Origin: Blautia sp. An249
GTDB taxonomy: Bacteria; Bacillota; Clostridia; Lachnospirales; Lachnospiraceae
Reading direction: 5' to 3'
Length of the DNA stretch: 64,000 nucleotides
Assembly (NCBI RefSeq): GCF_002159835.1
Contig: NZ_NFJL01000004.1
Span: 1 to 64,000, forward strand
Shown here: positions 36,691-64,000 of the stretch, piece by piece
Layout of the letters: every line of letters begins with the position of its first letter
Position numbering within the stretch: the first letter of the stretch is position 1
Program-made: the position numbers and the translations under genes
Notes under the pieces: model-generated
The model's input: the letters and a program-made list of their open reading frames with translations, nothing else
Databases searched by the model: none
Told to the model about the DNA's origin: nothing

Positions 36691-36704
36691 AGTATCCTTT
36701 CCCC

Positions 36705-47602: not shown

Positions 47603-47614
47603 TGTTTTTACCAG

Positions 47615-47643
47615 TTGCGTATTGCCAAAAAACATACTATAAT
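47615..47643 (+). promoter_or_regulatory. Promoter of dacF
   Basis: TTGCGT (47615-47620), 17 bp, TATAAT (47638-47643). Predicted start near 47650 gives a short leader with AAAGGAG before the ATG at 47677. Confidence 0.65.
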
Positions 47644-47676
47644 GAAGCAAACCTGAAAAATAAAGGAGAAAATTCT

Positions 47677-48912: not shown

Positions 48913-48918
48913 GGGATA

Positions 48919-48957
48919 TAAAAAGGAAGTGCAGACAGTCCGCACTTCCTCTTTTTT
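48919..48957. terminator. Bidirectional terminator of dacF and the PTS operon
   Basis: GGAAGTGC (48925-48932) pairs with GCACTTCC (48942-48949), with A-rich 5' and T-rich 3' flanks. It overlaps the stop codon of the leftward IIA gene. Confidence 0.8.
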
Positions 48958-49438
48958 ATTCCTCTGTTTTTTTCAGGTTGCTGCACAGAATCCGGTAAAC
49001 CGCTTCTCCGTCTTTCGCCTGAATGATTTTCTCTATCATTTCTTCCTTTTGTACCACTAAATTAATTAATTCTTTTAATACATCCAACTGCGCATGCTGC
49101 TCCTTTATGGCCAGCATGAGAACCAGGTGTACCGCCACCTTCTCTCCGTCCGGGTTTCCCATTACCCGGAAGTCCACCGGATTTTTTAAGACTGCCACAC
49201 AGATGCAGGTTTCATTCACATAGCACGCATCGGTGTGTGGAATCGCTGCCTTATATCCTTCCAGAGGCAGCCCGGTGGAAAATTTCTGCTCCCGCAGAAT
49301 CACATTCTCTTTAAAGTCTTCTTTTACAATTCCAAGCTCAAATAATCTGTCCGACAGAATTTCCAGCACTTCCTGATCCGTTGCGCCTTCAACCCCCACA
49401 TAGCAGGTTTCTTTTCTGATAGAATCTATCAATGCCAT
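48956..49438 (-). CDS. PTS EIIA of the fructose/galactitol family (SgcA-like)
   Basis: 160 residues. The phosphorylated His68 lies in AAIPHTD, the usual PTS-EIIA-2 motif. It accepts phosphate from HPr and gives it to EIIB. Only one EIIA is present for two EIIB/EIIC pairs in the locus, so it may serve both. It is the last gene of the eleven-gene leftward operon. In E. coli the corresponding gene is sgcA. Confidence 0.9.
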   Translation of the reverse strand: MALIDSIRKETCYVGVEGATDQEVLEILSDRLFELGIVKEDFKENVILREQKFSTGLPLEGYKAAIPHTDACYVNETCICVAVLKNPVDFRVMGNPDGEKVAVHLVLMLAIKEQHAQLDVLKELINLVVQKEEMIEKIIQAKDGEAVYRILCSNLKKTEE

Positions 49439-49453
49439 AACCCAGCCCCCGTT

Positions 49454-50077
49454 CTATTTAAATTTATGAATTACAGACAGCGGATCTTCCGACTGGAAAA
49501 CCGTCCGTCCCATCACAACTCCAGAAGCGCCTGCTTCTTTCACCGCATAAAATTCTTTTTCCCCGATGCCGCCGTCCGCCAGAATCTGGTATCGTCCCCC
49601 GGAGCACTCCGCCAGTGTCTTTATTTTATCCAGCATCTCTGCCTGGAAGAGATCCCCTTCCCCGTCGGGCTCAGAAGTCATAACCAGAACGTAGTCAATC
49701 CGATTTTTATAGGGAAGGATCTCTCTGGCAGAGGTGCGCGGATTTAAAGCAATGCCTGCCTTCATCCCCAATTGATGAATACGGTGAATCAGATACAGGG
49801 GATACCCTGTGGATTCCCAGTGAAAGGCCGCCGCACAGAATCCTGCTTCGGCAAGAAAGTCCAGATAATCTGCCGGGTTTGTCACCATCAGATGGGCGTC
49901 CATCCGGCCTTCCCACAGCTTCGCTGCTGCCCGGATGGTTTTCATGCCAAATGTGATATTTGGCACAAAGTTGCCATCCTCAATATCAAAATGCAGACAG
50001 GGACAGCCTTTTAACGCCCGGATGGCTTCTCCCAGATGCATCTGATCCGCAGATGCCAGGGAAGGAAGAATCTGCAT
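49454..50077 (-). CDS. Ribulose-phosphate 3-epimerase-like barrel (SgcE-like)
   Basis: 207 residues. HFDIEDGNFVPNITFG (about 30-45) keeps the metal His and Asp but has Glu where Rpe has Met. AHLMVTNPADYL has the second metal His and LADGGIG the phosphate and catalytic Asp region. The VMTVNPGFGGQ loop of true Rpe is replaced by VMTSEPDGEGDLF. It probably epimerises or isomerises a sugar phosphate other than ribulose-5-phosphate, produced from the PTS substrate (inference). AAAGGGTGAGA precedes the ATG. Confidence 0.85.
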   Translation of the reverse strand: MQILPSLASADQMHLGEAIRALKGCPCLHFDIEDGNFVPNITFGMKTIRAAAKLWEGRMDAHLMVTNPADYLDFLAEAGFCAAAFHWESTGYPLYLIHRIHQLGMKAGIALNPRTSAREILPYKNRIDYVLVMTSEPDGEGDLFQAEMLDKIKTLAECSGGRYQILADGGIGEKEFYAVKEAGASGVVMGRTVFQSEDPLSVIHKFK

Positions 50078-50094
50078 ATTCTCTCACCCTTTCT

Positions 50095-50913
50095 TTATAA
50101 GGAAGCTCTGAACTTCTTTACAACATCCATAAATTCTCTGACGCGCTTTTCGTCTGCTTCATTTTCAAATTTTCCGTCCTTCTTAAAGGTGGTTCCTACC
50201 ACAGCTCCGTCTGCAATACTTAACTGTTCTTCCACATTGTTAATTCTAACACCTGTATTGGCGAATACAAGAGTTTCCGGCACTTCCTTTTTCACCTCTG
50301 CCAGAACCTGAGAGTCTGTGGCTGATCCGGCTGTCAGTCCGGATACGCAGAGGGCGTCTGGCTTACAGTTAAATACCGTACTTTTTGCAATCTGTTTAAT
50401 ATCGTCTCTCTGAATATATTTTGCCGCTTCCGGCACAATGTTGAACAGCAATTTCACATCTTCTGCACCGATAGCATGCTGATGGCGCACCACTTCTCCG
50501 CAGTTTGTATTCCACAGGCCGAAATCACTGGCATATACTCCTGTGAAAATCTCCCGCACAAATTTCGCTCCCGTTGCAGCCGCCAGATCCAGAGACTTTG
50601 CCGGATCCCATAAAACATTCACCCCAAAGGGAATTTTCAAATCTGCTTTTAATTCCCCGATAATCCTCGCCATTGCCGCTACAGTTTCCGTCTTTACATC
50701 CGTCAGATAGGGGAGGCTGAATTCATTGGAAAACATTATAGCGTCTACGCCGCCTTCCTGCAGAGCAAGCATTTCTTTTTTCGCCCGGCAGATCACAGCA
50801 TCCATGCCCCCGGCTTTGTCAAATCCCGGATCTCCCGGAAGGGCCATGAAATGACACATGGCAATAATCGGTTTCTCTGTTCCTAAAATTTCCTTTGTCC
50901 ACTTTACGCTCAT
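50095..50913 (-). CDS. BtpA/SgcQ-family TIM-barrel protein
   Basis: 272 residues with the BtpA family pattern: KPIIAMCHFMALPGDP near 14-29, GVDAIMFSNEF near 55-65, PFGVNVLWDP near 95 and LFANTGVRINNVEEQL near 210. SgcQ of the E. coli sgc cluster belongs here. BtpA itself is tied to photosystem I assembly in cyanobacteria, but in PTS loci the function is unknown and a phospho-sugar aldolase or phosphatase-like role is only a guess. AAAGGAG precedes the ATG. Confidence 0.85.
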   Translation of the reverse strand: MSVKWTKEILGTEKPIIAMCHFMALPGDPGFDKAGGMDAVICRAKKEMLALQEGGVDAIMFSNEFSLPYLTDVKTETVAAMARIIGELKADLKIPFGVNVLWDPAKSLDLAAATGAKFVREIFTGVYASDFGLWNTNCGEVVRHQHAIGAEDVKLLFNIVPEAAKYIQRDDIKQIAKSTVFNCKPDALCVSGLTAGSATDSQVLAEVKKEVPETLVFANTGVRINNVEEQLSIADGAVVGTTFKKDGKFENEADEKRVREFMDVVKKFRASL

Positions 50914-50952
50914 ATTCTTTCTCCTTTATCCTTTTCTATTTTTTCTTTTTAT

Positions 50953-52044
50953 TTATCCTCTGCAGATGTCAATGTCTTTTCCGAATCTGCAGGCAGACGC
51001 CAGCATCAGCTTGGCACAGTCTTCCACATCCCGGCGGCTTGCCACCTCCGCAAGGGAATGGGTATACCGAAGAGGGATGGACAGATGGGCCATGGGAATT
51101 CCTTCCGTGCCCGCATGCTGTGTAAACGCATCGTCTGTAATCACTCCGATTACCACTTCTTTCTGGCACTTCAGCCCTTCTTCTTTCGCTGTTTTCTCTA
51201 AAAACGCATTTAGTTTCGGGTTCGGAAGGAGGCCTCCCAGAGTCCCTCTTCCATGAAAGTTCATATACATAATGGCCACGCCTTCTCCCACAGCCATTTC
51301 GTAGCGTCCCTTTAACTCCGGTGTATCACAGGCCGGTGAAATATCCACACAGATTGCCGCATCCGGCTGCAGCCTGCAAAAGGTAGGAGTTGCCGAACGG
51401 ATATTAAATTCTTCCTGCACCGTAAAAATCAGATGTATTGTAGCTTTATGCTCTGTTTTTCCCAGTTCTTCCGCCATATACAGCAGGGTATAGATTCCCA
51501 TCCGGTCATCCAGGGCTTTGGAAGCCACATAGTCCCCCAGCAGGGTAAAGTTGGGAATGTAGGTAACAATACTTCCGATGTCTACTCCCTTTTCCAGCAC
51601 CTCTGCTTTGGATTTGCATCCTAAGTCCACATACAATTCCCCGATGGGAGTCACTGCAAACTTTTTATCCGCAGGCGTGAGATGGTGGGAAGTATTTCCT
51701 ATTACAGCTCTGTATGCCTTCGTCTCATCCAGCGTATGTACATCCACCATGGAAGCCGGCAGGACTTTCTCCGGCACGCCGCCGACTCTCTCCAGACGCA
51801 AGAACCCGTTCTCTTCTACTTTCTTCACAATCAGTCCCACTTCGTCCATATGGGCAAAATAGGCAATGGAAACCCCGCCTTCTTCTGTTCCCGGATAGGT
51901 TGCAGTAATATTTCCCAACTTATCCACATGAACATCCTCGCACAGCCCTTCCAGACGTTTTAAAAGATAGGCTATCATTTTATCTTCATGTCCGCTTAAA
52001 GCAGGAATTTCCGTCAATTCCCTCATGTCTTTTTCAAAATTCAT
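50953..52044 (-). CDS. M42-family metallopeptidase-like protein (SgcX-like)
   Basis: 363 residues with all M42 metal ligands in place: HMDEVG (about 65-70), ALDDRMG (about 178-184), TVQEE (about 210-214), CVDIS (about 234-238) and RYTHSLAEV (about 330-338). The usual GLRGA after the glutamates is replaced by FNIRSATPT, as expected for the group that contains E. coli SgcX. M42 enzymes are cytosolic aminopeptidases forming large shells; in a PTS sugar locus it may instead act on an amide or glycosyl bond. Inference only. Confidence 0.86.
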   Translation of the reverse strand: MNFEKDMRELTEIPALSGHEDKMIAYLLKRLEGLCEDVHVDKLGNITATYPGTEEGGVSIAYFAHMDEVGLIVKKVEENGFLRLERVGGVPEKVLPASMVDVHTLDETKAYRAVIGNTSHHLTPADKKFAVTPIGELYVDLGCKSKAEVLEKGVDIGSIVTYIPNFTLLGDYVASKALDDRMGIYTLLYMAEELGKTEHKATIHLIFTVQEEFNIRSATPTFCRLQPDAAICVDISPACDTPELKGRYEMAVGEGVAIMYMNFHGRGTLGGLLPNPKLNAFLEKTAKEEGLKCQKEVVIGVITDDAFTQHAGTEGIPMAHLSIPLRYTHSLAEVASRRDVEDCAKLMLASACRFGKDIDICRG

Positions 52045-52068
52045 ATCGTTTCCTTTCTTTCCTGATTC

Positions 52069-52806
52069 TTATCCAATATGCATTCTTCCGCCGTCCGCGA
52101 TCAGAACTTCTCCGCACAGGTAAGAAGCCATATCGCTTGCCAGAAATAATGCAACAGAGGCTATATCTTCCGGTTCTCCCATTCTCCCAAGAGGCATCAC
52201 GCTCTTATAATGTTCTCTGGCAGCTTCCTCTGAACCGAATCGTGTGGCAAGCATTTTACTCATCACTACGGCCGGAGCAATCCCGTTTACCCGGATTCCC
52301 AGCCTGGCATATTCCCGGGCCAGAAACCGTGTCAGCGCATAGGATCCTGCTTTTGTGGTCACGTACTGAGGAATTCCGGTTCCGCCGCTGAATACGGACG
52401 CGGACGTGAGAATGACAATGTTTCCTTTTGTTTTCTCCAGATACGGCCTGGCCGCCTCAGAACAATAGTAGGTTCCCAGAGCATTGACCTGATAGCTGGT
52501 ATTCCAGTCTGCCACCACTCCCGCATTATTCACTAAAATATCCACGCGTCCGTAAGTACCTGCAATTTCCTCAAAAACCTGCTTTACCTTCTCTTCTTTG
52601 GATATATCGCATTGCCGGTAACCGGCGCGTTTTCCTGTTTTTTCCGTTTTATCCAGGAGTTCCTGCACCTGTTCTTCCTGGCATACGTCCAGAATCACCG
52701 TCTGCGCCCCTGCCTGTGTGAGCTTTTCTGCGATTGCCGCTCCGATTCCCTGTGCCGCCCCTGTTACTACCGCAACTTTGCCTCCCATATCTATCTCATA
52801 GCTCAT
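52069..52806 (-). CDS. SDR-family oxidoreductase
   Basis: 245 residues. NAD(P)-binding TGAAQGIGAAIAE (about 16-28), NNAGVV (about 91-96), catalytic Ser in LTSASVFSGG (about 132-141) and Tyr-x3-Lys in YVTTKAG (about 147-153). Classical SDR fold. The ATG overlaps the stop of the upstream alcohol dehydrogenase by 4 bp, so the two dehydrogenases are made together, perhaps for successive steps on a polyol. Substrate unknown. Confidence 0.9.
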   Translation of the reverse strand: MSYEIDMGGKVAVVTGAAQGIGAAIAEKLTQAGAQTVILDVCQEEQVQELLDKTEKTGKRAGYRQCDISKEEKVKQVFEEIAGTYGRVDILVNNAGVVADWNTSYQVNALGTYYCSEAARPYLEKTKGNIVILTSASVFSGGTGIPQYVTTKAGSYALTRFLAREYARLGIRVNGIAPAVVMSKMLATRFGSEEAAREHYKSVMPLGRMGEPEDIASVALFLASDMASYLCGEVLIADGGRMHIG

Positions 52807-53855
52807 TTCGACCCTTCTTCCGTCTTATCTATTTTTATAATGCACTTCAGACACTGTCCTCTGCCGATTGTCTGCGCGATGGCCTTATCCAGTTCCCCCA
52901 GGGAAAACCGGTGGGTAATATAAGATTTCGCATCTATCATGCCACTGGCAATAAGACGCAGCGCCTCCCTGGTATTGTTCTGATTAGCCGAATAGGTTAA
53001 AAGGACTTCCATCTCTTTAAAAAACGCTTCACTGACATAGAACTTCAGGTATTCTTCCGGAGCCGGGGTAGCAAATAAAAGCAGCTTTCCCCCTTTTCCC
53101 GTCAACTTGAATCCCGTCTCCATAGCCCGTACATCTTTTGCCATAACGCACACTTTGTCGAACTGATTCCAGCCAAATTCCTCTTGTAACTTCTCCAGTT
53201 CTTTCTCCGGATCTTCTTCTGCTGCGCGGGCAGACAAAACACCTTTCTTCTTTGCCATTTCCTGTCTCCAGGGAATAATCTCGTAAGCCACGATGTCGCT
53301 TACCCCATAAGCTTTTAATGCCTCAATCAGCATCAATCCTATGGTTCCGGTTCCCACAACTGCAATCCTGTCTGAAGGTTTCACGTCCATTCTCTCAATT
53401 CCGTGAAGGGCGCAGGCAAGAGGTTCAATCAGAGAAGCCTCCTCGAAACTCACGTGATCCGGAAGTTTCAGAGTATCTTTTTTCACATGTTCTGCCCCCG
53501 CCTTAAAATATTCTGCAAAACCGCCCGGCTGATAATGGGTCTTTTTAAACTGTCTGCAGAGGGTATAATGCCCTTTTCTGCACTCTTCGCAGCGCATACA
53601 GGGAATATGATGATGTACAAATACCCGATCGCCCACCTGGAAATCTGTCACCCCCTCTCCTGCTTCTGCCACAGTTCCCACCGCTTCATGCCCCAGAATA
53701 ACAGGAGCTTTAGGCTTGTTGTACCATTCCATGGTATCTGCCACGCATACGCCGCAGGTGTCTGTCTTTACCAGGATTTCTCCCGGCCCTGCAGAGGGCT
53801 TTTCTACTTCTTCTACTCTCACATCTGTGTTGGTATAATATACTGCCGCTTTCAT
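52803..53855 (-). CDS. Zinc-dependent medium-chain alcohol/polyol dehydrogenase
   Basis: 350 residues. Catalytic zinc site with Cys in DTCGVC (about 33-38) and GHEAVG (about 54-59); structural zinc cluster CMRCEECRKGHYTLC (about 86-100, four Cys); NAD motif VVGTGTIGLMLIEAL near 166-180. The protein is like sorbitol, threonine and galactitol-1-phosphate dehydrogenases. In a galactitol-type PTS locus a polyol-phosphate dehydrogenase role is likely (inference). AATAGGAG precedes the ATG. Confidence 0.9.
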   Translation of the reverse strand: MKAAVYYTNTDVRVEEVEKPSAGPGEILVKTDTCGVCVADTMEWYNKPKAPVILGHEAVGTVAEAGEGVTDFQVGDRVFVHHHIPCMRCEECRKGHYTLCRQFKKTHYQPGGFAEYFKAGAEHVKKDTLKLPDHVSFEEASLIEPLACALHGIERMDVKPSDRIAVVGTGTIGLMLIEALKAYGVSDIVAYEIIPWRQEMAKKKGVLSARAAEEDPEKELEKLQEEFGWNQFDKVCVMAKDVRAMETGFKLTGKGGKLLLFATPAPEEYLKFYVSEAFFKEMEVLLTYSANQNNTREALRLIASGMIDAKSYITHRFSLGELDKAIAQTIGRGQCLKCIIKIDKTEEGSK

Positions 53856-53887
53856 AAATCTCTCCTATTCCAGACTGCTTTTGGTTC

Positions 53888-55156
53888 CTACGCAAATAAT
53901 CCCGCAATCTTTGATAAAATCCAGGTCAGCCAGTTGCCGGCGGACAATGCCGTTATATCTACCGCTCCTTCCGGAAGGGTATACCCTGCGGATACTGCCA
54001 TCTCCGTCATAGAGGATCCGAAACTGGTACAAATCAGCATAACCACGCTCATAATCACGACGCCGCAAATCAGAGAACGGAATAAATTCCCTTTACTCAG
54101 ACAGGGTACCAATGCTACGAAGTAGGCCAGGGAAGCTAAATCCCCAAAGGGAAGTACTCTGTTTCCGGGCAGAATCACAGCCAGAATCAGGGTAACCGGT
54201 ATCAGAATCAGGCCTGCCGCCACAGTTACCGGATGTCCGATTAAAATCGCGGAATCCAGTCCCACATAGAATTCTCTGTCCCCAAAGTGTTTTTTCATAA
54301 ATTTTTTCGCCGCATCCGATACAACGGACAGGGATTCCATAAACAGGGCGATGAATTTGGGTATAATCATCATAACGGCCCCAATGGAAATGGCAGAGCT
54401 TAAAAGCAGAGGAATATCGCTCCAGTATCCGGACAGCAGTCCTAAAATCAGTCCCAGCACCGTTCCAAGTACCAGCGGACTTCCGAAAATCCCCCATTTT
54501 TCCTGAATATGTTTCTCATCCCAGTTGATGTCCTTTATCACCGGAATCCGATCCAGCACCCAGTTTACTCCTGCAATAATAGGAATACTGGTAACCGCCC
54601 ATCCATGAGGAATGGAAACGCCCGGCACCTGGTAGAAGTCCTGTACCCGTTTGGCCGTCCTGTCCGCCATCACCAGACAGAAAGCCGCATGAATGGCGCC
54701 TGCTATCAGGCCTAAAATAAGATTCCCGGATATAATGTAGACAACTGATGCAGTAAAGGCATGATTCCAGAAATTCCATATATCCACATTCAGTGTCTTA
54801 GTCAGTTTTGTGGCAAGCATGATGATATTCACCCCCAGAGACACCAGAATGATCAGTGCACCGCAGGTAGTACTATAGGCAATGGCCGATCCCACAGCCC
54901 AGCCCACGTCCAGAATGTCATTTTTCAGTCCCCATTCTTCCACCATGATCTCAATCATGGGATTTACTGTGGTCATCATCAGGTTAATTACCAGATTCAG
55001 TCCGATGTAGGCTGCGCCAAATGTCAGACCTGCCATCAGCGACTTTTTCAGTTTCGCCCCGAAAATCATACAGATAATGAAAATGAAAATCGGAATTAAT
55101 ACAGAAGCGCCTAAACTGGTAAGTGCATTTGAAATTTTTGTAATTGTTTCAACCAT
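53888..55156 (-). CDS. PTS EIIC of the galactitol/SgcC family
   Basis: 422 residues with about ten hydrophobic spans. GLTFGAAYIGLNLVINLM near 48-65 and GLDSAILIGHPVTVAAGLILIPVTLI near 298-323 are matched closely in the second EIIC at 60429. It is the membrane channel that moves and helps phosphorylate the sugar. Operon with EIIB 40 bp upstream. The family name does not fix the substrate as galactitol. Confidence 0.9.
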   Translation of the reverse strand: MVETITKISNALTSLGASVLIPIFIFIICMIFGAKLKKSLMAGLTFGAAYIGLNLVINLMMTTVNPMIEIMVEEWGLKNDILDVGWAVGSAIAYSTTCGALIILVSLGVNIIMLATKLTKTLNVDIWNFWNHAFTASVVYIISGNLILGLIAGAIHAAFCLVMADRTAKRVQDFYQVPGVSIPHGWAVTSIPIIAGVNWVLDRIPVIKDINWDEKHIQEKWGIFGSPLVLGTVLGLILGLLSGYWSDIPLLLSSAISIGAVMMIIPKFIALFMESLSVVSDAAKKFMKKHFGDREFYVGLDSAILIGHPVTVAAGLILIPVTLILAVILPGNRVLPFGDLASLAYFVALVPCLSKGNLFRSLICGVVIMSVVMLICTSFGSSMTEMAVSAGYTLPEGAVDITALSAGNWLTWILSKIAGLFA

Positions 55157-55196
55157 AGTTTTCCTCCTTGCTAATAGCCCCGTTGTCCTTTGTTCT

Positions 55197-55499
55197 TTAA
55201 TTCTTCTCCGAAATTTCTTTTATTTTCTCTGCCAGTTTCTCCAGCAGTTCCTCATCCCCCACCCCGGTTAAAAGAGGAACTCCGTTAAAGACCGGAAGTC
55301 CTGACTCAAAAGAAACCTGAGCGGTACTTAAGATCACGTCGCAGCCTGTCAGCCGGTTGGCCAGATCCTGCACGCTGCATGTCATAATCGAAATCGGTAT
55401 TTTCCTTTCATCCATATATTCCTGTACAATAGATGCCGCATGGGTGGATGTGGCAATCCCTGAGCCACAGGCAACCATTAATTTTACTGTTCTTCCCAT
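55197..55499 (-). CDS. PTS EIIB of the galactitol family
   Basis: 100 residues. Phospho-acceptor Cys11 in MVACGSGIATST, the expected P-loop-like motif. The C-terminus contains LLTGVGDEELLEKL, typical of Gat IIB. It passes phosphate from EIIA to the sugar bound to EIIC. AGGAGG precedes the ATG. Confidence 0.9.
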   Translation of the reverse strand: MGRTVKLMVACGSGIATSTHAASIVQEYMDERKIPISIMTCSVQDLANRLTGCDVILSTAQVSFESGLPVFNGVPLLTGVGDEELLEKLAEKIKEISEKN

Positions 55500-55522
55500 T
55501 TTGTTTCCTCCTCTTTTTTATC

Positions 55523-57226
55523 TCATTGCTTTTCCCAGAATATTTCTGCCAGTTGTTCTGCTTTTTCTGCTGATTCTGCCTTTATGGCTTCCAGAGCGAT
55601 TTCTCTGCACTCCCTGGCAGAAAGTCTTCCTATCCACTCCTTAACTTCTCCTATTCCTCCCGGTGATACGCTGAACTCGTCCAGCCCCAGCCCCAGCAAT
55701 ATGGGGATCATTTTTTTATCCCCGGCGGCTTCCCCGCACATTCCGCAGGGTTTTCCGTTTTTATGGGCTCCTTCTATGGCCAGTTGTATCAGTTTTAATA
55801 CGGCCGGATGGAAATAGGTATAAAGATCCGCAATCTCTTCATTTCCCCTGTCTGCGGCAAGCGTGTACTGAGTCAAATCGTTTGTCCCAATGGAGAAAAA
55901 GTCTGCCTCCTTTGCAAAAGTCTCCGCCATCACAGCCGCAGAGGGAATTTCAATCATCATTCCCATGGGGATCTTCTCTTTTACTTCCTTTCCTTCTTTT
56001 TCTAATTCTCTTCTGCACTCTTCTGCCATACCTTTCGCCCACCGCAGTTCCTCTACCGAAGAAATCATGGGAAACATAATCTGAAGCTCTCCATATACGG
56101 AAGCTCTCAAAAGGGCCCGAAGCTGCGTTTTAAACACCTCTTTTTCCTTCCGGCACAGTCGGATTGCCCGGTTTCCCAGGAAAGGATTCTGCTCCTTTTT
56201 CATGGGCAGGGCAGGGACTTCTTTGTCTCCGCCTATGTCCAGGGTTCTTACAATCACCGGCTTTTCTTTCATGCTTCTTAAAACAGAGGCATAAGCCTGA
56301 TACTGCTGCTCTTCTGTGGGAAGAAATTCCCCGGTCAGATACAGAAACTCCGAACGGAACAGTCCGATTCCTCCGGCTCCGTACTGGAGCGCTTTTTGAG
56401 CATCCTGCACATTTCCGATATTTCCGAAAAGCTGCACCCTCTTTCCTTCTTTGGTAACACAGGGAAGATTTGCCCTTTCAGCTCTGCGTTTCCGTTCCTG
56501 TTTCTCTTTTTCTATTTCTTTTCTAAATCTCTCTGTTACCTTTTTCTCCGGTTCCGGAAAGACTTCTCCGCTGTTTCCGTCCAGAGCGATTCTCATTCCG
56601 TTTTTTACATTTTCCAGAATCCCTTTCACCCCCACAGCCGCGGGAAGTTCCATGGTTCTTGCCAGAATAGCTGTGTGAGAAGTTTTCCCTCCCCCTTCCA
56701 TAACAAGGCCCACAATGTGACGAAAGTCCAGCCCTGCCGTAACGGACGGCGGAATGTCTTCCCCTATCAGAACCGTTGGCTCCTGCAGGGAGCCTGTGTC
56801 CGGAAGGGAAATTCCCTGCATCTGTCTCTGAAGCTGCATCTTAATGTCCTGTATATCGGAAGCTCTCTGTTTCATATATTCACTGTCCATAGCGGCAAAT
56901 AGTTCCATATACTGATTCATCACCTTTTCCACTGCATCTACTGCACTGGCGCCCAAGGAAATCTCTCCTCTGATGGGGACAATCATTTCTTCATCCTGTA
57001 AAATGGAACAATGCGCTTCAAAAATTGCAGCTTCTTCCCGGCCTATCCCCCTTTTTGTTTTCCTGGCCAGGTTCTGGTTCTTTTCCAATACCTCCAGGCG
57101 CGCTTTTTCAAAATCTGCTTCTTCTGTCTCTTTTCCTTTAAAGGGCCGGTTCAGTTTCACCGGTATTTCAGAATACACCAATGCTTTTCCAAGACAGACG
57201 CCCCTGGATACTCCGATTCCTTTCAT
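55523..57226 (-). CDS. ptsI: Phosphoenolpyruvate-protein phosphotransferase (EI)
   Basis: 567 residues. Phospho-His184 in GGGKTSHTAILAR, PEP-binding and dimerisation part with FRSEFLY, IGTNDLTQYTLAADR and catalytic Cys in CGMCGEAAGD near 500. It starts the PTS phosphorelay from PEP. ATG 57226 lies one base past the HPr stop, with GGGTGA upstream; a GTG at 57235 overlapping HPr is an alternative. Inclusion of EI in a substrate operon is uncommon and suggests either a private relay or that this is the genome's main EI. Confidence 0.94.
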   Translation of the reverse strand: MKGIGVSRGVCLGKALVYSEIPVKLNRPFKGKETEEADFEKARLEVLEKNQNLARKTKRGIGREEAAIFEAHCSILQDEEMIVPIRGEISLGASAVDAVEKVMNQYMELFAAMDSEYMKQRASDIQDIKMQLQRQMQGISLPDTGSLQEPTVLIGEDIPPSVTAGLDFRHIVGLVMEGGGKTSHTAILARTMELPAAVGVKGILENVKNGMRIALDGNSGEVFPEPEKKVTERFRKEIEKEKQERKRRAERANLPCVTKEGKRVQLFGNIGNVQDAQKALQYGAGGIGLFRSEFLYLTGEFLPTEEQQYQAYASVLRSMKEKPVIVRTLDIGGDKEVPALPMKKEQNPFLGNRAIRLCRKEKEVFKTQLRALLRASVYGELQIMFPMISSVEELRWAKGMAEECRRELEKEGKEVKEKIPMGMMIEIPSAAVMAETFAKEADFFSIGTNDLTQYTLAADRGNEEIADLYTYFHPAVLKLIQLAIEGAHKNGKPCGMCGEAAGDKKMIPILLGLGLDEFSVSPGGIGEVKEWIGRLSARECREIALEAIKAESAEKAEQLAEIFWEKQ

Positions 57227-57227
57227 A

Positions 57228-57494
57228 TTATTCACCCAATCCCGCTTCTATGGCTTTAACAAGTTCCCTGCATGCCTCCTTTTCATCCTCGCCGTCACAA
57301 ACCAGCTCTACCTCCATTCCACAGTCAATGCCTGCCGCCAGAACGCTCAAAATGGATTTCGCATTTACGATTCTGGTTTCATCGCAGATTAGTTCTACTT
57401 TTGACTGAAATTTACTTGCCAGTTTGGTCAGTGTATCTGCCGGTCTGGCATGCAGCCCTGATTTTGATACAACTTTTACTTTTGTTTTTGTCAT
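57228..57494 (-). CDS. ptsH: HPr phosphocarrier protein of the PTS operon
   Basis: 88 residues. His15 in SGLHARPAD, and Ser47 in AKSILSV, a regulatory phosphorylation site in Firmicutes. The ATG overlaps the last codon of the PRD regulator by 4 bp and EI follows at once. It carries phosphate from EI to EIIA and possibly to the PRD regulator. It differs in many residues from the HPr at 36427. Confidence 0.93.
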   Translation of the reverse strand: MTKTKVKVVSKSGLHARPADTLTKLASKFQSKVELICDETRIVNAKSILSVLAAGIDCGMEVELVCDGEDEKEACRELVKAIEAGLGE

Positions 57495-59830
57495 TTTCTC
57501 ACCTCACCGTTTAATATCTTAAGCACTTCCTGTTTTGTGCTTACTTCCAGAAGACGCCTGGCATTTTCTTTCTTCCCCAGTTTTAATACCAGTTGTTTCA
57601 CTTTTTCAACGTCTTCTCCTCTCTGTTCTTTTTCCGGTATCAGAAGCAGCAGAGCGATTCTTATCATCTTTGCCTCTTCCGGGTAGTCTTTGCCTTTCGC
57701 CCAGTCCACCGGGGAAACGGTTCTTAAAAACACTGCCTTCGTTTCCTTCACCCCGGCAGTCACTGCATGTACCAGAGCAGTTCTTTTGCCGATACCTGTA
57801 AAAGCAAGTTTCTCTCTTTGGGCCACTGCTTTTACAATTTCTGTTTCGTCTGTAACTCCATTTTCCGTTAAAATATGCTTCGTCAGAATTCGGATAACTT
57901 CTTCTTTTGTCTTTGCCTCCCGATCCAGAATCACATTTTCTTCTCTTAGAAGCTCTGTGAAATTCTCCTGTTCTCTTCCCCCGCCCAGGTAATTTAGTAC
58001 GGCGCGGGAATCCCGGCAGGCAAAAACTGCATTTATCTGTTTTTCTTCCAGAGACATACGGTAAATTTCTGAAAGAAGCGCCGTTATCATTTCATCTTCC
58101 AGGGTGCAGATGTCAAACCGGATTTGTTTCGTCTTATGATTCACATAAAGATTAAGTCTTCCTTCTCCTTTTTCTTCCCGGACACACACTTTCAGATTCT
58201 CCGTAAGCGCCGCACTGACCAGAACCTTTTCTCCTTCGGCCTGACAGGTATCTGTAAAAACAGATTCTTCCGTCAGCATGGACGTTATCCGGTCATATCC
58301 CTTTTCTCTTTTGCGGGAAGCGATGTCAATCGTATCCCGTATGGCGCTTATGTCCTTATCTGTCAGGAAAGAAGAAACGAGCAAATGGGGAAGCTTTCCC
58401 ACATCTACCGGTACGGTGGATATAATGAAATCTGTCTCCTTTAATTCCATCTGTTTCAGCTTCCTTACAGAAACAACCGCACGGATATTCAGATTGGGAA
58501 ACTGCTGTTTCAGCATTGCTTCCAGTAACTGGGAAGTTCCGTATCCGCTGTGACATACAACTACTGCACTGACCGGATTTGTCTGTTTTACCAATGCCGT
58601 CTGATAATAGGTTGCCAGATTTCCGATTTCATCTAAACTGATAAAACCCAGTCCATATTTTCTTCCCACCAATGCGCATGCAATCTGGCAGATACCCAGT
58701 ATCTGAGGATAACTTTTCTGCATCTCCTCCAGAAGGGGATTGGCGATTTTAATCTGATACTCCAGACGGTTCAGAAGAGGTCTGATGTGAAGCAGAAGTC
58801 CTTCCATTAACATTTCTTCCCGGATGAATTTCACCCCTAATATCTGTTCCATGTACTCTGTCAGACTTTCTGCTACCCGGCTGCTGAAATTTTCTTCTCC
58901 CTGCAGCCCCTGTACTGTTTTCTCCTGAGTAATCAGAGAACAGATATACTGATAAATGTAGTAGGTTTCTTCCTCTCCTATATCCACTCCATACCGTTTC
59001 TGTATTCCTCTGGAAATTCTCACAGCTTTTTCGTAGCCGTCCCTCTTTTTCGCCGTTTCTCGGAACCGTTCTTTTGTCTGTCCGTCTACCCTCTTTCCTT
59101 CTCTTACCCGTTGTATACAGATTAAAATATGGGTCAGCAGATTTTTGTAATAAATATCACTGGCTCCTAAGGTCTCCCCTGTCTGAACTTCTTCCAGCAG
59201 TTCCACCACAAATACAATGTCTTCCGGTTCAAAAATCTCCAGGAGTCCATATACCGTATCTCTGTCCAGGTGGAACCCTTCTGCAAAGCCGATGTCCCGT
59301 CTTTCCCCCGGAAAGTCTGTCTGACATAAGAGCGAGGTAATTGCTTCCCGGATATTCCGCTCTTCACCGGCAATTCTTGTTCCATGCTTGTTTTTTTCCA
59401 GATAAAGGCCATACCGGTCCAGCCATTCTTCGATGTATTTCAAATCATTTACTATACTGGTTTTTCCCACATAATATTGTTCCGAAAGTTTCTGCAGGGA
59501 AATAGACCGCTCTGAATGCATCAGCATATTCTTCAGAATCTCTGCCCTGCGCTCCCCCGGCACAGCCTCTTTCTTTTCCTTATCTCTGCTGAGGAAATCC
59601 CGAAGCTCTGTACTGGAGCGGGTTTCTCTGGTTAAACATACGCCTTTTCCTGTTTTTGTCATAATTTTTCCGTTATAGTTTTCCAGAAAAACCCGAAGAA
59701 CCTTAAGATCTTCTTTTAAGGTTTTCCCTGATACTCCCAGTTTGTCAGCAAAAGACTGTACTGCCGCATAATCTGTTTCCTGTAAGAGCAATTCCAGAAA
59801 TTCCTTTTGTCTTTGATTCAATTTTTCCAT
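57491..59830 (-). CDS. PRD-domain transcriptional activator (BglG/LicR/MtlR type)
   Basis: 779 residues. Two N-terminal winged helices (about 1-60 and 85-150), PRD1 (about 190-300) with His234 in LLTHILICIQR, PRD2 (about 320-420) with His348 in LLLHIRPLL, a EIIB-like domain with Cys426 in VVCHSGYGTSQLL and a C-terminal EIIA-like domain with a His in ALVHA. The second conserved His of each PRD is replaced by Tyr or Gln. Such proteins switch transcription according to their phosphorylation by HPr and EII. The start at 59830 has GAGGAG 7 bases upstream. First gene of the leftward PTS operon, divergent from the second IIB-IIC arm. Confidence 0.9.
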   Translation of the reverse strand: MEKLNQRQKEFLELLLQETDYAAVQSFADKLGVSGKTLKEDLKVLRVFLENYNGKIMTKTGKGVCLTRETRSSTELRDFLSRDKEKKEAVPGERRAEILKNMLMHSERSISLQKLSEQYYVGKTSIVNDLKYIEEWLDRYGLYLEKNKHGTRIAGEERNIREAITSLLCQTDFPGERRDIGFAEGFHLDRDTVYGLLEIFEPEDIVFVVELLEEVQTGETLGASDIYYKNLLTHILICIQRVREGKRVDGQTKERFRETAKKRDGYEKAVRISRGIQKRYGVDIGEEETYYIYQYICSLITQEKTVQGLQGEENFSSRVAESLTEYMEQILGVKFIREEMLMEGLLLHIRPLLNRLEYQIKIANPLLEEMQKSYPQILGICQIACALVGRKYGLGFISLDEIGNLATYYQTALVKQTNPVSAVVVCHSGYGTSQLLEAMLKQQFPNLNIRAVVSVRKLKQMELKETDFIISTVPVDVGKLPHLLVSSFLTDKDISAIRDTIDIASRKREKGYDRITSMLTEESVFTDTCQAEGEKVLVSAALTENLKVCVREEKGEGRLNLYVNHKTKQIRFDICTLEDEMITALLSEIYRMSLEEKQINAVFACRDSRAVLNYLGGGREQENFTELLREENVILDREAKTKEEVIRILTKHILTENGVTDETEIVKAVAQREKLAFTGIGKRTALVHAVTAGVKETKAVFLRTVSPVDWAKGKDYPEEAKMIRIALLLLIPEKEQRGEDVEKVKQLVLKLGKKENARRLLEVSTKQEVLKILNGEVRK

Positions 59831-60139
59831 GCGCATTCTCCTCAAGGCCTTTTGAGTGTATATCTTGTTTACATAAATTAATATAGCATCAACTTTATAT
59901 GGCGAAAATACCAAGTCTTTTCACCATCGATAAGGAAGTATTAGAACACTTCCTCTAATAAATTGCTATTTTTTTCATATTTTTTATGCATTTTAAACTC
60001 ATTATCCATTATCCCTTTAAAATCCTTCTATATTTTATTGGATTTATCCAATTTTTATATTGACTTATTTTACTATAATTGGTAATATGCAAGTATATAA
60101 TTGGTTTTTTACAAATTTATTCAAAAAGGAGGATTACTT
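59831..60139. promoter_or_regulatory. 309-bp divergent control region of the two PTS arms
   Basis: AT-rich, no gene. Rightward promoter TTGACT (60060-60065), 17 bp, TAATAT (60083-60088). TATAATTGGT occurs twice as an exact direct repeat (60074-60083 and 60096-60105), 22 bp apart, bracketing the -10 and +1. ATTGGAT-TT-ATCCAAT (60037-60052) is a perfect palindrome just upstream of -35. AGGAAGT (59933-59939) with ACTTCCT (59947-59953) and TATTAGA/TCTAATA (59939-59960) form overlapping inverted repeats. These are candidates for PRD activator and DeoR sites. No clear leftward -35/-10 pair was found. Confidence 0.55.
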
Positions 60140-60415
60140 ATGAAGAAAATCTTGTTTGTCTGCGGTACTGGCGGAATCACATCAGCAGTTGCAGAAAACC
60201 GGGTACAAGAGGCCTGTTCAAAGGCAGGAATTCCGGTCACTACCTTAAGATGCACTCCCACCAGTATCACTTCCAGCCTGGACGGAATTGATTTAATTGT
60301 CTCCACCACCTATCTAAGCGGAGACTTTCCGGTGGAAGTGGTCAATGCCCTGGCACTGATAACCGGTATCGGTACAGAGGCTGTGTTAGATGAAATTGTC
60401 AGCAAACTAAAGTAA
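60140..60415 (+). CDS. PTS EIIB of the galactitol family, second copy
   Basis: 91 residues. Phospho-acceptor Cys8 in FVCGTGGITSAVAENRV, slightly different from the other EIIB. The ATG at 60140 follows AAAGGAGG. First gene of the rightward arm. No EIIA is encoded in this arm, so phosphate may come from the EIIA at 48956. Confidence 0.9.
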   Translation: MKKILFVCGTGGITSAVAENRVQEACSKAGIPVTTLRCTPTSITSSLDGIDLIVSTTYLSGDFPVEVVNALALITGIGTEAVLDEIVSKLK

Positions 60416-60428
60416 GGGGGAAATTTCT

Positions 60429-61688
60429 ATGTTTATGCAGGTTATTCATTTTATTATGGACGCTGGTTCCTCTGTCTTTATGCCCATTATTATTCTGATT
60501 CTGGGCCTGATCTTCGGTCTGAAGCCGGGGAAAGCCTTCAAAGCAGGAATCACTGTGGGCATCGGATTTATCGGGATTAATCTTGTGATCTCCATGCTGG
60601 CTGACAGTCTGATGGTGGTTATTAACCAGCTTGTAGAACTTTACAATTTCAAACTTACCGCCATTGACGTGGGATGGCCCATTGCCTCCAGTATTGCCTG
60701 GTCCAGCGGGGCTGTGGTTCCGGTAATTTTGGTTTCTGTATTTGTCATGAACATTCTGCTCGTGATTGTGGGATTTACCAAGACCCTGGACGTAGATATA
60801 TGGAACTACTGGCAGCCACTTTTCATCGGCGGTTCTCTGTACTTACTCAGCGGAAATATGCTTCTCTCCGTAGGCGCCGCCTGCCTGGCTATGGCCGTTA
60901 TTTTTAAGATTGCCGATTTCTCACAACCCTATGTAGAGAAATTTTTCGGAATTCCCGGAATCTCTATCCCCCACATCGAATCCACCGGCTGGGCTCTGAT
61001 CGGAATTCCTTTGAATAAAGTAATCGACCGCATTCCCGGAATCCGGAACATCGACTGGACTCCCGAGAAAATACAGAAAAAGCTGGGCGTTCTCGGGGAA
61101 CCCAGCATTCTCGGTCTGATTATCGGCGCCATTCTTGCGTTAGTCGCCAGAGTGGATGCTTCCACGGTTATGAATACGGCTATGACCACTGCCGCCGCTA
61201 TGTTTATCCTTCCCAAAATGATCGGAATCCTGATGGAAGGACTTATGCCTGTATCTTCTGCCGCCTCAGAATTCATGCAGAAGAAGTTCAAAGGCCGCAC
61301 CCTTTATATCGGGCTGGACGCCGCCGTGGTTGTGGGGCACCCCTCCATTATCGCAACCTCCCTTTTATTAATTCCTACCACATTGATTCTGGCAGTTATT
61401 CTTCCCGGAAATATCACCCTGCCCCTTGCCGAATTAAGCGGTCTTACCTTTTTCATCGTGTGGGCCGTTGTTCCTTCAAAGGGAAACGTCTTTCGCGGCT
61501 GGCTGATTGGAACCCTCTTTATGGCTGTTATCCTGCTGATTTCGTCGGACTATGCGCCTGTTATGACCGCTCTCGGAAACAGCGTAGGATTTGAATTTCC
61601 GGAAGGAGCCAGTATGGCCACTTGCCTGTCCATTGGTTCCCAGTGGGTTTCTTATCTTATCTATAAACTTGGCACCTTATTCGTCTAA
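60429..61688 (+). CDS. PTS EIIC of the galactitol family, second copy
   Basis: 419 residues, about ten spans, clearly paralogous to the EIIC at 53888: both share the N-terminal G-L-T/V-G-xx-x-IG-NLVI segment and the GLDAAVVVGHPSIIATSLL region. It starts 13 bp after EIIB with GGGGGAAA upstream. Presence of two IIB/IIC pairs suggests two related substrates or two anomers. Confidence 0.9.
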   Translation: MFMQVIHFIMDAGSSVFMPIIILILGLIFGLKPGKAFKAGITVGIGFIGINLVISMLADSLMVVINQLVELYNFKLTAIDVGWPIASSIAWSSGAVVPVILVSVFVMNILLVIVGFTKTLDVDIWNYWQPLFIGGSLYLLSGNMLLSVGAACLAMAVIFKIADFSQPYVEKFFGIPGISIPHIESTGWALIGIPLNKVIDRIPGIRNIDWTPEKIQKKLGVLGEPSILGLIIGAILALVARVDASTVMNTAMTTAAAMFILPKMIGILMEGLMPVSSAASEFMQKKFKGRTLYIGLDAAVVVGHPSIIATSLLLIPTTLILAVILPGNITLPLAELSGLTFFIVWAVVPSKGNVFRGWLIGTLFMAVILLISSDYAPVMTALGNSVGFEFPEGASMATCLSIGSQWVSYLIYKLGTLFV

Positions 61689-61703
61689 AGAAAGGAATAC
61701 ATC

Positions 61704-62207
61704 ATGGAAAAAGAAAAACTGCTTATAAAACGCGCAGACACAGACTTTGAATACCACAGAAGCGCCCTGCTCTTAAGCGAAAATGAGCCCTGGCTGAGTC
61801 TGGGAAAAACTTTTGATTATACCATGGGGAAAATACGGGACGCCGCAGGGGAACTGTATGTGGTCTACTCCCAAGAAGAATTGGCCGGATGCATCCTTAT
61901 AGAGCTTCGTGGAAATCTGAGAGGATTTATCCGTTCCTTCTGTATCGATCCCAGATTTCAGGGAGGAGGCATCGGAGGAAGAGTGATCGCCTATATTGAA
62001 AAGCTTATCTTTGAAAGCTATCCCAATGTTTTCGTATTTGCCGCCTCCTTTAATGAGGGCGCAATCCGGTTCTATGAGCGTCACGGTTATGAACGGGTGG
62101 GAACCTTTAAAGACTATGTGGTCAGAGGAAGCGATGAGATTCTCTTCCGTAAAACAATCGGGCCGTCCGGCGGATTCCATAAGAAATACGAAAAGGTAGA
62201 GATATAA
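61704..62207 (+). CDS. GNAT-family N-acetyltransferase
   Basis: 167 residues. Acetyl-CoA motif RGFIRSFCIDPRFQGGGIGG with the Q-G-G-G-I-G pattern near 75-94, and the C-terminal strand EGAIRFYERHGYERVG near 121-136. It belongs to the rightward PTS arm, 15 bp after EIIC. It might acetylate an amino sugar or an amine imported by the PTS (inference). Confidence 0.85.
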   Translation: MEKEKLLIKRADTDFEYHRSALLLSENEPWLSLGKTFDYTMGKIRDAAGELYVVYSQEELAGCILIELRGNLRGFIRSFCIDPRFQGGGIGGRVIAYIEKLIFESYPNVFVFAASFNEGAIRFYERHGYERVGTFKDYVVRGSDEILFRKTIGPSGGFHKKYEKVEI

Positions 62208-62240
62208 TTTTTCCTTACGGGGGATTTCCTTTCACTCATC

Positions 62241-62269
62241 TGGAAAGCAGAGAAATTCTATGCTATACT
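62241..62269 (+). promoter_or_regulatory. Possible promoter of the DeoR gene
   Basis: TGGAAA (62241-62246), 17 bp, extended -10 TGC-TATACT (62264-62269). The -35 is poor. The gene may therefore have its own low-level transcription besides read-through from EIIC. Confidence 0.45.
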
Positions 62270-62304
62270 GAACGTGATTTATGAGTTTATAAGGAGCTGT
62301 TGTG

Positions 62305-63090
62305 ATGAAATCCAATAATAAAATGAAGCATCGGCGCGAGAATATGCTGCAGCTTATCTGCGAGGCCCCCGTAACCACTATCAATGAACTGGCCGAATTT
62401 TTTTCCGTATCTACGGAAACTATCCGAAAGGACATTGAATTTCTGGAAGAACAGGATCTGGTTATCCGTATCCACGGCGGTGTTGCGCCAAAGGAACGCA
62501 AAAGTAACGAAACCCCTTTTTCCACCCGTTCCACCCATAATCTGGCCCAGAAACAGCGGATCGCCCAGGCCGCCTATCACATGATAAAACCCGGCGATTC
62601 CATCATTCTGGAAAGCGGAACCACAGTACAGGAGCTGACAAAGCTGCTGGCCGATGACCAGGAGCTTCTCAAATCCCTGGTCATTATCACCATGTCTTTC
62701 CGAATCATGGAAATCCTCCAGGAGAGCAGCTACAGCCATGTTTTTTTCCTGGGAGGACGGGTACGCCGGGATGACTTTATGACCTATGGTCATTATACAA
62801 TTTCCATGCTCCAGCAGTTTCATGTGGATAAGGCTTTTATCGGGGGAGCAGGGATTAACCGGGAACTGGTTCTTACGGATTATTTTGATGAGGAGATTAT
62901 GCTGCGCCGGCAGATTCTGGCTTCCTCTGATAAAACCATTCTCCTGGCAGACAGCTCCAAAATGGATAAAACAACTATCTTTTCCGTCTGCAATCTGAAG
63001 GACATCTATCGGCTGATTACGGATAAAGACTGCCCCGGGGAGATGACAAATCTATTCGATCAGAATAAAATCAGCTACCGGCTGGTATAA
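62305..63090 (+). CDS. DeoR-family transcriptional regulator
   Basis: 261 residues. N-terminal HTH with TTINELAEFFSVSTETIRKDIEFLEEQ, then RIHGG, the standard DeoR signature. The C-terminal sugar-phosphate sensing domain has SIILESGTTVQEL and DKAFIGGAGIN. ATG 62305 follows AAGGAG by 8 bases, though GTG 62302 is possible. Like E. coli SgcR it likely represses the PTS locus and is released by a phospho-sugar intermediate. Confidence 0.9.
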   Translation: MKSNNKMKHRRENMLQLICEAPVTTINELAEFFSVSTETIRKDIEFLEEQDLVIRIHGGVAPKERKSNETPFSTRSTHNLAQKQRIAQAAYHMIKPGDSIILESGTTVQELTKLLADDQELLKSLVIITMSFRIMEILQESSYSHVFFLGGRVRRDDFMTYGHYTISMLQQFHVDKAFIGGAGINRELVLTDYFDEEIMLRRQILASSDKTILLADSSKMDKTTIFSVCNLKDIYRLITDKDCPGEMTNLFDQNKISYRLV

Positions 63091-63138
63091 AAACTGCCGC
63101 AGCTATGAATGAAAAACTCATAGCTGCGGCAGTTTTTT
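63090..63138. terminator. Bidirectional terminator
   Basis: Perfect stem AACTGCCGCAGCTATGA / TCATAGCTGCGGCAGTT around a 9-base loop, with TTTTTT on the plus strand and AAAA on the left. It separates the DeoR gene from the ATP-grasp gene. Confidence 0.85.
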
Positions 63139-63141
63139 CTT

Positions 63142-64000
63142 TTATTTTGGATAAGAAGGTATTTCGTTTCTGTAAATAACTTCCTCGCCCTTTTCATCTG
63201 TAATGGAAATTTCCCGGTAGATTTTCTCTGTCAGTCTGTCCAGGTCTTTCCGGTCTTTTCCCCGGATATAATACCGGGCCACGTAAGGATTTCTTCCATG
63301 CTCTTCTATAATTTCTCCTCCCCGGTAAAACAGCCAGCATTCCTTTACCTGTTCCAGTTCTCCCAGGCGGCGGGCTGTCTTTTGATCTGCAATCTTCTTT
63401 CCCGGCTTTCCATGAAAATATAAAACAGCACAGCAGTTGTGAAAAAACGGCTGATGGCCTTTTACCAGGCGCGCCAGACTTTCTTTGTCATAAGCATAAT
63501 CTAAAAGCAGATCTTCCACCTTTAAACCGCTGCAGTAATCAATCAGCTCATGCTCGTATCCCAGAAACCGGCCCGCCACTTCGCAGACAGAGATTCCCCT
63601 CCGGGGATTCCAGAAAAACTGCATGGAAAGGATTCCCTCTTTCTGCCCGGTATAATCCGCTACTTTCTGCAGGATTTCTCTGGCGTCTTCATAAACCTCT
63701 GTCATAAGACAGGAAGGATACACATTTCTGGTACTGATGGGAATCTCCCTTTGATTTACCGGTGTTTTTTCCCGGTCGGCAAGACTTAACACGTAAACCT
63801 GCCCTTCCAGCACCCAGGTCATCATATTAAATTCATAGCCATCCTGGTACTCTTCCACCAGAATCTCTGGCTTCTGGGAATATCCCTTCACTTTCTGAAA
63901 ATATTCCCGGATTTCCAATGGAGAATTTAAAATGTAGACACCTCTGGAACCGTATCGATCCAGGGGTTTGCTTACCACCGGAAATCTGAGTCCGGAAGTT
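63142..64000 (-). CDS. ATP-grasp domain protein, 5' end beyond the window
   Basis: 286 or more residues; the frame stays open to the right edge, so the N-terminus is missing. FPVVSKPLDRYGSRGV at the edge matches the ATP-grasp entry strand and loop. VEEYQDGYEFNMMTWV follows, with GILSMQFFW and CEVAGRFLGYEHELIDYCSG further on, all typical of carboxylate-amine ligases of the carbamoyl-phosphate synthetase or RimK/D-Ala ligase type. Substrate is not clear. A GTG at 63978 is internal, not the start. Confidence 0.8.
   Translation of the reverse strand, partial: TSGLRFPVVSKPLDRYGSRGVYILNSPLEIREYFQKVKGYSQKPEILVEEYQDGYEFNMMTWVLEGQVYVLSLADREKTPVNQREIPISTRNVYPSCLMTEVYEDAREILQKVADYTGQKEGILSMQFFWNPRRGISVCEVAGRFLGYEHELIDYCSGLKVEDLLLDYAYDKESLARLVKGHQPFFHNCCAVLYFHGKPGKKIADQKTARRLGELEQVKECWLFYRGGEIIEEHGRNPYVARYYIRGKDRKDLDRLTEKIYREISITDEKGEEVIYRNEIPSYPK

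Follow-up and report, generated by a model that had tools for sequence, protein, structure and literature searches.

Gene organization of the locus

A gene cluster containing fifteen genes was identified in Blautia sp. An249, at positions 48956-63090 of a stretch of 64,000 nucleotides (contig NZ_NFJL01000004.1, positions 1 to 64,000), which is referred to here as the window. The cluster encodes a phosphotransferase system (PTS) related to that of the sgc genes of Escherichia coli. Judged from its gene content, it is likely an enlarged sgc-type locus for the catabolism of a polyol or ketose phosphate, with its own relay for phosphate from phosphoenolpyruvate (PEP). Eleven genes are read leftward and four rightward. 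All fifteen open reading frames named in the initial annotation are present, and their assignments are backed by Pfam for every gene, with NCBIfam in agreement. The genes are as follows.

48956-49438, minus strand: PTS IIA (PTS_EIIA_2, GatA-like); PF00359, 105 bits; IPHTD motif by eye
49454-50077, minus strand: Rpe-like sugar-phosphate 3-epimerase (SgcE-like); PF00834, 168 bits
50095-50913, minus strand: SgcQ (BtpA/SgcQ family), a predicted phosphate-binding TIM barrel; TIGR00259, 322 bits, cut-off 153
50953-52044, minus strand: SgcX, M42 metallo-aminopeptidase family; PF05343, 256 bits; metal-site columns by eye
52069-52806, minus strand: short-chain dehydrogenase (SDR); PF13561, 187 bits
52803-53855, minus strand: Zn-dependent polyol-type dehydrogenase (MDR); PF08240 and PF00107
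53888-55156, minus strand: PTS IIC of the galactitol (GAT) class, arm 1; PF03611, 260 bits
55197-55499, minus strand: PTS IIB, arm 1; PF02302; ACGSG cysteine
55523-57235, minus strand: locus-borne enzyme I (EI); TIGR01417, 603 bits, cut-off 342
57228-57494, minus strand: locus-borne HPr, with His15 and Ser46 equivalents by eye; TIGR01003, 83.5 bits, cut-off 47.9
57491-59830, minus strand: PRD regulator carrying an EIIB-like domain and, fused at its C-terminus, a IIA domain; Pfam; start moved from 59914
60140-60415, plus strand: PTS IIB, arm 2; PF02302; VCGTG cysteine; start moved from 60101
60429-61688, plus strand: PTS IIC, GAT class, arm 2; PF03611, 264 bits
61704-62207, plus strand: GNAT acetyltransferase; PF00583, 52 bits
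62302-63090, plus strand: DeoR-family regulator; PF00455, 151 bits

The earlier coordinates are right overall, except that the starts of the PRD regulator and of the second IIB move inward. Inspection of the sequence places each corrected start at an ATG with a ribosome-binding site ahead of it. The EIIB-like domain of the PRD regulator is a weak Pfam match (24.1 bits against a cut-off of 23.6). Reading frames overlap by 4 bases between the PRD and HPr genes, by 8 bases between the HPr and EI genes and by 4 bases between the MDR and SDR genes, and these overlaps point to a single operon of the leftward genes.

Active-site motifs were recognized by eye in several of the proteins, including TSH and MCGE in EI, GLHARPA and the serine of NAKS in HPr, and the His and Asp residues of the Rpe-like enzyme. 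The M42 protein has conserved His, Asp, Glu-Glu, Asp and His columns, which we take to be its metal ligands. The motifs of the EI, HPr, IIB, IIA, M42 and Rpe proteins are those that active members of these families should have. The best solved relatives of the MDR are a ketose reductase and alcohol and sorbitol dehydrogenases. The two IIC proteins, which are 42% identical, are encoded by the sole EIIC-GAT genes of the source genome. Recent import was judged from base composition and gave no sign, the GC content being 0.463 in the locus and 0.458 in the left flank. No Rfam family was found in 47400-63300.

Relationship to the sgc and gat genes

The fifteen proteins were compared by BLAST with 23 proteins of E. 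coli K-12 at E 1e-3. SgcQ of the locus is 67% identical to E. coli SgcQ. The M42 protein is closest to SgcX (41%, 270 bits), followed by FrvX (30%, 138 bits) and YpdE (26%, 111 bits). Both IIC proteins match SgcC (arm 1, 41%, 328 bits; arm 2, 39%, 261 bits). GatC is matched in two pieces, with 213 and 89.7 bits in arm 1 and 222 and 56.6 bits in arm 2; since gatC of K-12 is a pseudogene and is matched piecewise, the margin of SgcC over GatC is small for arm 2. The epimerase is nearer to SgcE (36%, 120 bits) than to Rpe (32%, 89 bits), and a partial AlsE sequence gave no match. The IIB proteins do not separate SgcB from GatB (33% and 35%, respectively, in arm 1; 38% and 33% in arm 2; bit scores 64.7 versus 63.2 and 58.9). 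The DeoR protein is 28% identical to SgcR. The IIA protein is 30% identical to GatA and also matches FryA, whereas SgcA is unmatched at this threshold. The locus had been described as holding homologues of the whole sgc set. That description stands for the core of SgcQ, SgcX, SgcC and SgcE but is not quite right as a whole, because the IIA is closer to GatA. The GNAT protein shows a weak match, 33% over 73 residues, to E. coli YjhQ, an acetyltransferase antitoxin encoded near sgc in the K-12 region 4522000-4542000; this is probably coincidence.

A galactitol operon was considered and is rejected on three results. No match to GatY or GatZ was found among the fifteen proteins at E 1e-3. The MDR is only 27% identical to GatD and scores 126 bits against the galactitol-1-phosphate 5-dehydrogenase model NF007642, whose cut-off is 550. 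The IIC proteins reach 440 and 389 bits against the galactitol model TIGR00827 (cut-off 542), and the IIB and IIA proteins likewise fall under the NCBIfam galactitol cut-offs. These results fit the initial annotation, which pointed to a dedicated catabolic system for a sugar or polyol yet to be named.

A conventional PTS operon for galactitol or an arabitol-like pentitol would feed known ketose phosphates to glycolysis or the pentose-phosphate pathway, with SgcX, SgcQ and GNAT as accessory proteins. The needs of a pentitol pathway, namely GAT-class IIB/IIC, a Zn-dependent polyol-type dehydrogenase and an Rpe-like epimerase, are all present here, and a link to pentitols is likewise offered as a hypothesis in an E. 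coli atlas paper (PMC13343008). We regard such an operon as unlikely, given the gat comparisons above and the finding that relatives keep SgcQ and SgcX as part of the conserved core, not as extras.

Conservation in related genomes

The unit is kept in two further genomes. In locus L165, from a genome of another genus (G133), the same genes occur in the same order, with one HAD gene added between EI and IIB; the locus is therefore no chance assembly of neighbouring genes. Identities between the window and L165 are 94% for IIB and 89% for IIC of arm 1, 88% for SgcQ, 84% for IIC of arm 2, 82% for SgcX, 77% for MDR, 76% for SDR and 75% for IIB of arm 2. They are 66% for IIA, 65% each for GNAT and DeoR, 64% for Rpe, 62% for HPr, 59% for EI (57% over its full length) and 33-47% for the PRD regulator. 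In L165 the IIA domain of the regulator is encoded by a gene of its own, a hint that its fused counterpart in the window might work as a second IIA.

The second of these loci, L043, contains the whole locus except EI and HPr, so its transporter can evidently be fed by other EI and HPr proteins. A smaller version, L044, is without EI, HPr, MDR and SDR. GNAT is kept in both L043 and L165. Locus L046, from a metagenome-assembled genome of Oscillospiraceae, has an operon headed by HPr and EI that also contains SIS-like, aldehyde dehydrogenase, SgcQ, Rpe, MDR, IIB and IIC genes. The HAD gene of L165 (6826-7656) encodes a HAD-IIB phosphatase, and similar open reading frames are found in L043 (12151-12939) and L044 (2914-3834) and none in the window locus.

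The EI/HPr pair could also be a mere passenger, decayed or redundant, that plays no particular part. Its absence from L043 and L044 would fit such a passenger, as would its lower identity between the window and L165 (59 and 62%) compared with IIB, IIC, SgcQ and SgcX (82-94%). The pair nevertheless has full-length frames and active-site motifs in both genomes, with scores that exceed the family cut-offs, and we consider a passenger highly improbable.

SgcQ itself is patchily distributed. It is found in four of 64 genomes of the genus, two of them with weak or distant copies (G154, 27-30%; G176, 46%). In the family, 19 of 150 genomes have a match over the Pfam cut-off and 27 of 150 at E 0.001.

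EI and HPr proteins of the locus

Bacteria ordinarily have EI and HPr proteins that serve all of their sugar importers in common. The source genome encodes three EI proteins, located on the contig of the locus (C34) and on two others (C13 and C3), together with a pyruvate phosphate dikinase-like protein on C6. Six HPr-family matches were found, three of which have a phosphorylatable His15 by eye. These three are the locus copy, one whose gene follows ybbR elsewhere in the window and one encoded beside the EI of C13. The possibility that the EI and HPr of the locus are the sole general PTS proteins was thereby rejected, in agreement with the initial annotation.

The Ser46 equivalent is kept in the locus HPr and in the ybbR-linked HPr by eye. 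The HPr beside the general EI (C13, L173:11101-11358) has Lys at this regulatory position, also by eye. Among the remaining HPr-like proteins, that of C67 (L175) has Glu in place of His and a Ser46-type motif, as in Crh, and those of C5 (L176) and C45 (L177) are shorter and have no phosphorylatable His. The third EI (C3, L174:8788-10425) has no adjacent HPr and adjoins genes that, on inspection by eye, resemble those of a spermidine/putrescine-type ATP-binding cassette (ABC) transporter.

No other EI among the 64 genus genomes is more than 46% identical to the locus EI. A survey of 396 family genomes, with at most three candidates scored per genome, gave a single EI above 46% among the matches listed, that of G133, at 57% over the full length. 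A tree of EI proteins was built from 46 rows, after seven rows repeating other loci and 11 near-identical genus rows had been left out; it is unrooted. The EI proteins of the window and L165 form a pair with support of 100/100. This pair, 16 EI proteins linked to cdaA-ybbR, the EI of L046 and four others make up a set with support of 99/95, from which 14 ptsI-type and nine PfkB-operon-type rows are excluded. The nearest neighbours of the pair, cda-linked proteins or L046, are not separated. The locus EI does not group with the ptsI proteins of the genus, either here or in an earlier tree that left out only the seven repeated rows, and is, from its position in the tree, not a recent copy of ptsI. 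Hence the private phosphorelay of the initial annotation is real in gene content and lineage, although L043 has the locus without it.

A gene set comprising cdaA, which encodes a cyclic di-AMP (c-di-AMP) synthase, ybbR and an HPr gene (36427-36690) is located at 36427-38859 of the window on the minus strand. No EI gene lies beside it, and its HPr is 57% identical to the locus HPr. An HPr gene follows ybbR in all 30 genus loci that were fetched, with no EI within about 1.2 kb beyond. In loci from other genera of the family (L211-L230), both HPr and EI follow ybbR in 16 of 20; these loci are 20 of the 30 best-ranked EI matches and not a random draw. CdaA and YbbR were identified by Pfam in L217. 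These arrangements suggest that a PTS relay is tied to the c-di-AMP operon in this family. In three genus mates (G192, G188 and G176), HPr and EI end an operon of PRD, IIA, PfkB, MDR, HPr and EI genes; its domains were tested in L168, and L170 and L171 gave similar matches. The EI result also suggests that the EI/HPr pairs of the family form several lineages associated with certain operons, that of the c-di-AMP synthase being one. According to PMC2405797, ptsH/ptsI paralogs are mostly proteobacterial and the ptsHI genes of Firmicutes are mainly inherited vertically.

The pair might act mainly as a signalling branch that phosphorylates the PRD regulator and possibly also the lone HPr of the cdaA-ybbR operon, with transport depending on the general EI and HPr. 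The position of the locus EI on the cda-linked side of the tree is consistent with such a branch, as are the ybbR-linked HPr, which has no EI alongside, and L043, which would transport without the pair. In the window, however, HPr and EI share an operon and overlapping frames with the IIB/IIC and catabolic genes, and G133 retains the pair together with the locus. A mainly signalling role is distinctly unlikely on this evidence.

Genomic context and predicted fold of SgcQ

The neighbourhoods of 80 sgcQ genes were surveyed within a reach of 8 kb. These are the best 80 of 571 relatives, so the counts describe close relatives of SgcQ. A GAT-class IIC (13 loci) or an FGGY kinase (59 loci) was found in 70 of the 80, two of which have both. 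The other ten have neither; L046 is among them, with its IIC farther off. SgcQ therefore occurs in two uptake contexts, a PTS or an ABC transporter with an FGGY kinase. FGGY representatives are xylulokinase-like (310 bits, cut-off 380) and ribulokinase-like (571 bits, cut-off 428). A copy of SgcQ in genome G160 (69%) has the FGGY/ABC context. An Rpe-like gene is present in all 13 PTS-type loci versus three of the 67 others. M42 genes are present in 24 loci, M29 genes in 10 and either in 33. The two occur together in one locus, L102, where the M29 match is weak and 7 kb off; with a hypergeometric p of 0.13 for so little overlap, their exclusivity is suggestive only and not significant. NagB-like genes are present in eight of the 80 loci.

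Since PTS import and a kinase both yield a sugar phosphate, SgcQ most likely acts on one. No solved structure was found for SgcQ by sequence search at E 0.01. Its AlphaFold model is a barrel (pLDDT 88.8, pTM 0.90), whose nearest solved folds, many of them tied, include 3-hexulose-6-phosphate synthase (Z 18.8, 3.0 A, 202 residues). Further matches are KDPGal aldolase (Z 18.4), GGGP synthase, TenI and HisF, and Foldseek agrees. A sugar phosphate is probably the substrate of SgcQ according to this model as well.

Control region

The proposed control elements between the two divergent arms are as follows.

59920-59937, no strand: imperfect palindrome, a candidate operator for the leftward operon; differs at 3 positions from the palindrome form in L165/L043
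60038-60051, no strand: proposed operator copy 1 (TTGG-N6-CCAA), a 14-mer
60060-60088, plus strand: promoter-like hexamers between both operator copies
60101-60114, no strand: proposed operator copy 2, a 14-mer, 63 bases downstream of copy 1

In L165, one form of the 14-mer occurs twice without mismatch, 62 bases apart, and L043 has a single copy. By position only, the paired 14-mers are candidate sites of the DeoR protein and the palindrome is a candidate site of the PRD protein. A palindrome match of this kind was obtained in six of 100 shuffles. With two mismatches allowed, the operator pattern occurs eight times in the window versus a chance mean of 5.95. Promoter-like sites over the region number 20 versus 19.9 by chance; such sites, like terminator-like ones, turn up equally often in shuffled sequence and are not used alone as evidence. 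A search with an exact consensus for a catabolite-responsive element (cre-type site) found none in the window.

Proposed pathway

The locus most likely encodes a sugar-alcohol or sugar-phosphate pathway. In the proposed pathway, the locus EI would take phosphate from PEP and pass it through the locus HPr and IIA to the two galactitol-class IIB/IIC pairs. Through these pairs, a sugar alcohol or sugar, or two related ones, would enter the cell and be phosphorylated. Oxidation or reduction of the sugar phosphate may then fall to the Zn-dehydrogenase and the SDR, and the SgcE-like enzyme would invert C3 of a ketose phosphate. SgcQ, as a phosphate-binding barrel, may perform the committed step, perhaps of an aldol type. 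The predicted role of SgcX is to hydrolyse an amide or peptide bond, either of the substrate or of a by-product. The order of these steps and the reaction of SgcQ are inferred. The PRD protein is predicted to sense flux via the state of IIA/IIB and to activate the leftward operon, and the DeoR protein to repress the rightward arm from the paired operators. The private relay probably provides phosphate independently of the general HPr, which has Lys at its Ser46 site.

Several points weigh against this proposal. L043 keeps the locus without EI and HPr, which speaks against an indispensable, insulated relay and makes the private relay an accessory. The two dehydrogenases are missing from L044. 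HAD-type hydrolase genes are present in seven of the 13 PTS-type SgcQ loci and in L165; they hint at a dephosphorylation for which the window locus has no gene. Many phosphate-binding barrels are tied as fold matches, so that no single activity is assigned to SgcQ. The operator pattern was built from the very sites that it describes, and its weaker matches occur no more often than by chance. For E. coli, PMC13343008 (July 2026) reports that mutants of sgc grew without defect on 190 carbon sources.

In the same paper, sgc of E. coli is reported to be induced 16- to 25-fold under a group of nitrogen-containing, slow-growth conditions, and the sgc substrate and functions are left open, in line with the statement of the initial annotation that this substrate is undefined. 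In the literature searched, which included few subscription journals, no substrate has been assigned to sgc and no sgc locus with its own EI and HPr has been described.

A more tentative possibility is that sgc/SgcQ pathways degrade nitrogen-bearing conjugates of sugars or polyols, such as aminoacyl or N-acyl polyols or glycated amino acids. An M42 or M29 enzyme or, elsewhere, a NagB-like deaminase would cut the C-N bond of the phosphorylated conjugate, SgcQ would be a sugar-phosphate enzyme of a kind not yet assigned, GNAT would acetylate the released amine, and the PEP relay would come from the cda-linked EI lineage. This idea draws on the M42/M29 and NagB-like genes of the SgcQ loci and on the induction of sgc on nitrogen-containing carbon sources. 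It has, in our estimate, a small chance of being correct.

A polyol or ketose-phosphate pathway with its own relay remains our preferred reading. Which substrate E. coli sgc serves is a long-standing question, and the locus described here is a more complete version that includes dehydrogenases, a PEP relay of its own and two regulators. Together with the two uptake contexts of SgcQ, it turns the question of the substrate into assays on sugar and polyol phosphates.

Comparison with known systems

The sgcXBCQAE genes and sgcR of E. coli have counterparts of SgcQ, SgcX, SgcC, SgcE and SgcR in common with the locus, whose IIB proteins match SgcB about as well as GatB. The locus differs in the addition of EI, HPr, the PRD regulator, MDR, SDR, a second IIB/IIC arm and GNAT, and in an IIA that is GatA-like and not SgcA-like. 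The gatYZABCD genes of E. coli share GAT-class IIA, IIB and IIC and a Zn-dehydrogenase with it, whereas the tagatose-bisphosphate aldolase subunits are absent here and the dehydrogenase is distant from GatD, as noted above.

The FGGY/ABC loci (L048, L051 and that of G160, L288) have SgcQ in common with the window locus, often with M42 or M29, SDR and DeoR genes. They differ in that uptake proceeds via an ABC transporter and phosphorylation is carried out by a kinase, not by a PTS.

Separate EI and HPr genes within a transporter cluster, as here, are also described in PMC2405797 for the fructose-class PTS on plasmid pNG700 of Haloarcula marismortui. That cluster is archaeal, belongs to the fructose class and is not an sgc locus. 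The fryA-ypdE-ypdF-fryC-fryB genes of E. coli likewise form an operon for a PTS that is uncharacterised, and they too encode an EI/HPr/IIA relay and an M42 aminopeptidase; the locus EI is 37% identical to FryA by BLAST. The fry relay differs in being one fused protein, its IIB/IIC are of the fructose type, and its annotated stretch is without SgcQ, epimerase and dehydrogenase. With fry there is thus a precedent for an uncharacterised PTS that has both an M42 protein and a relay of its own.

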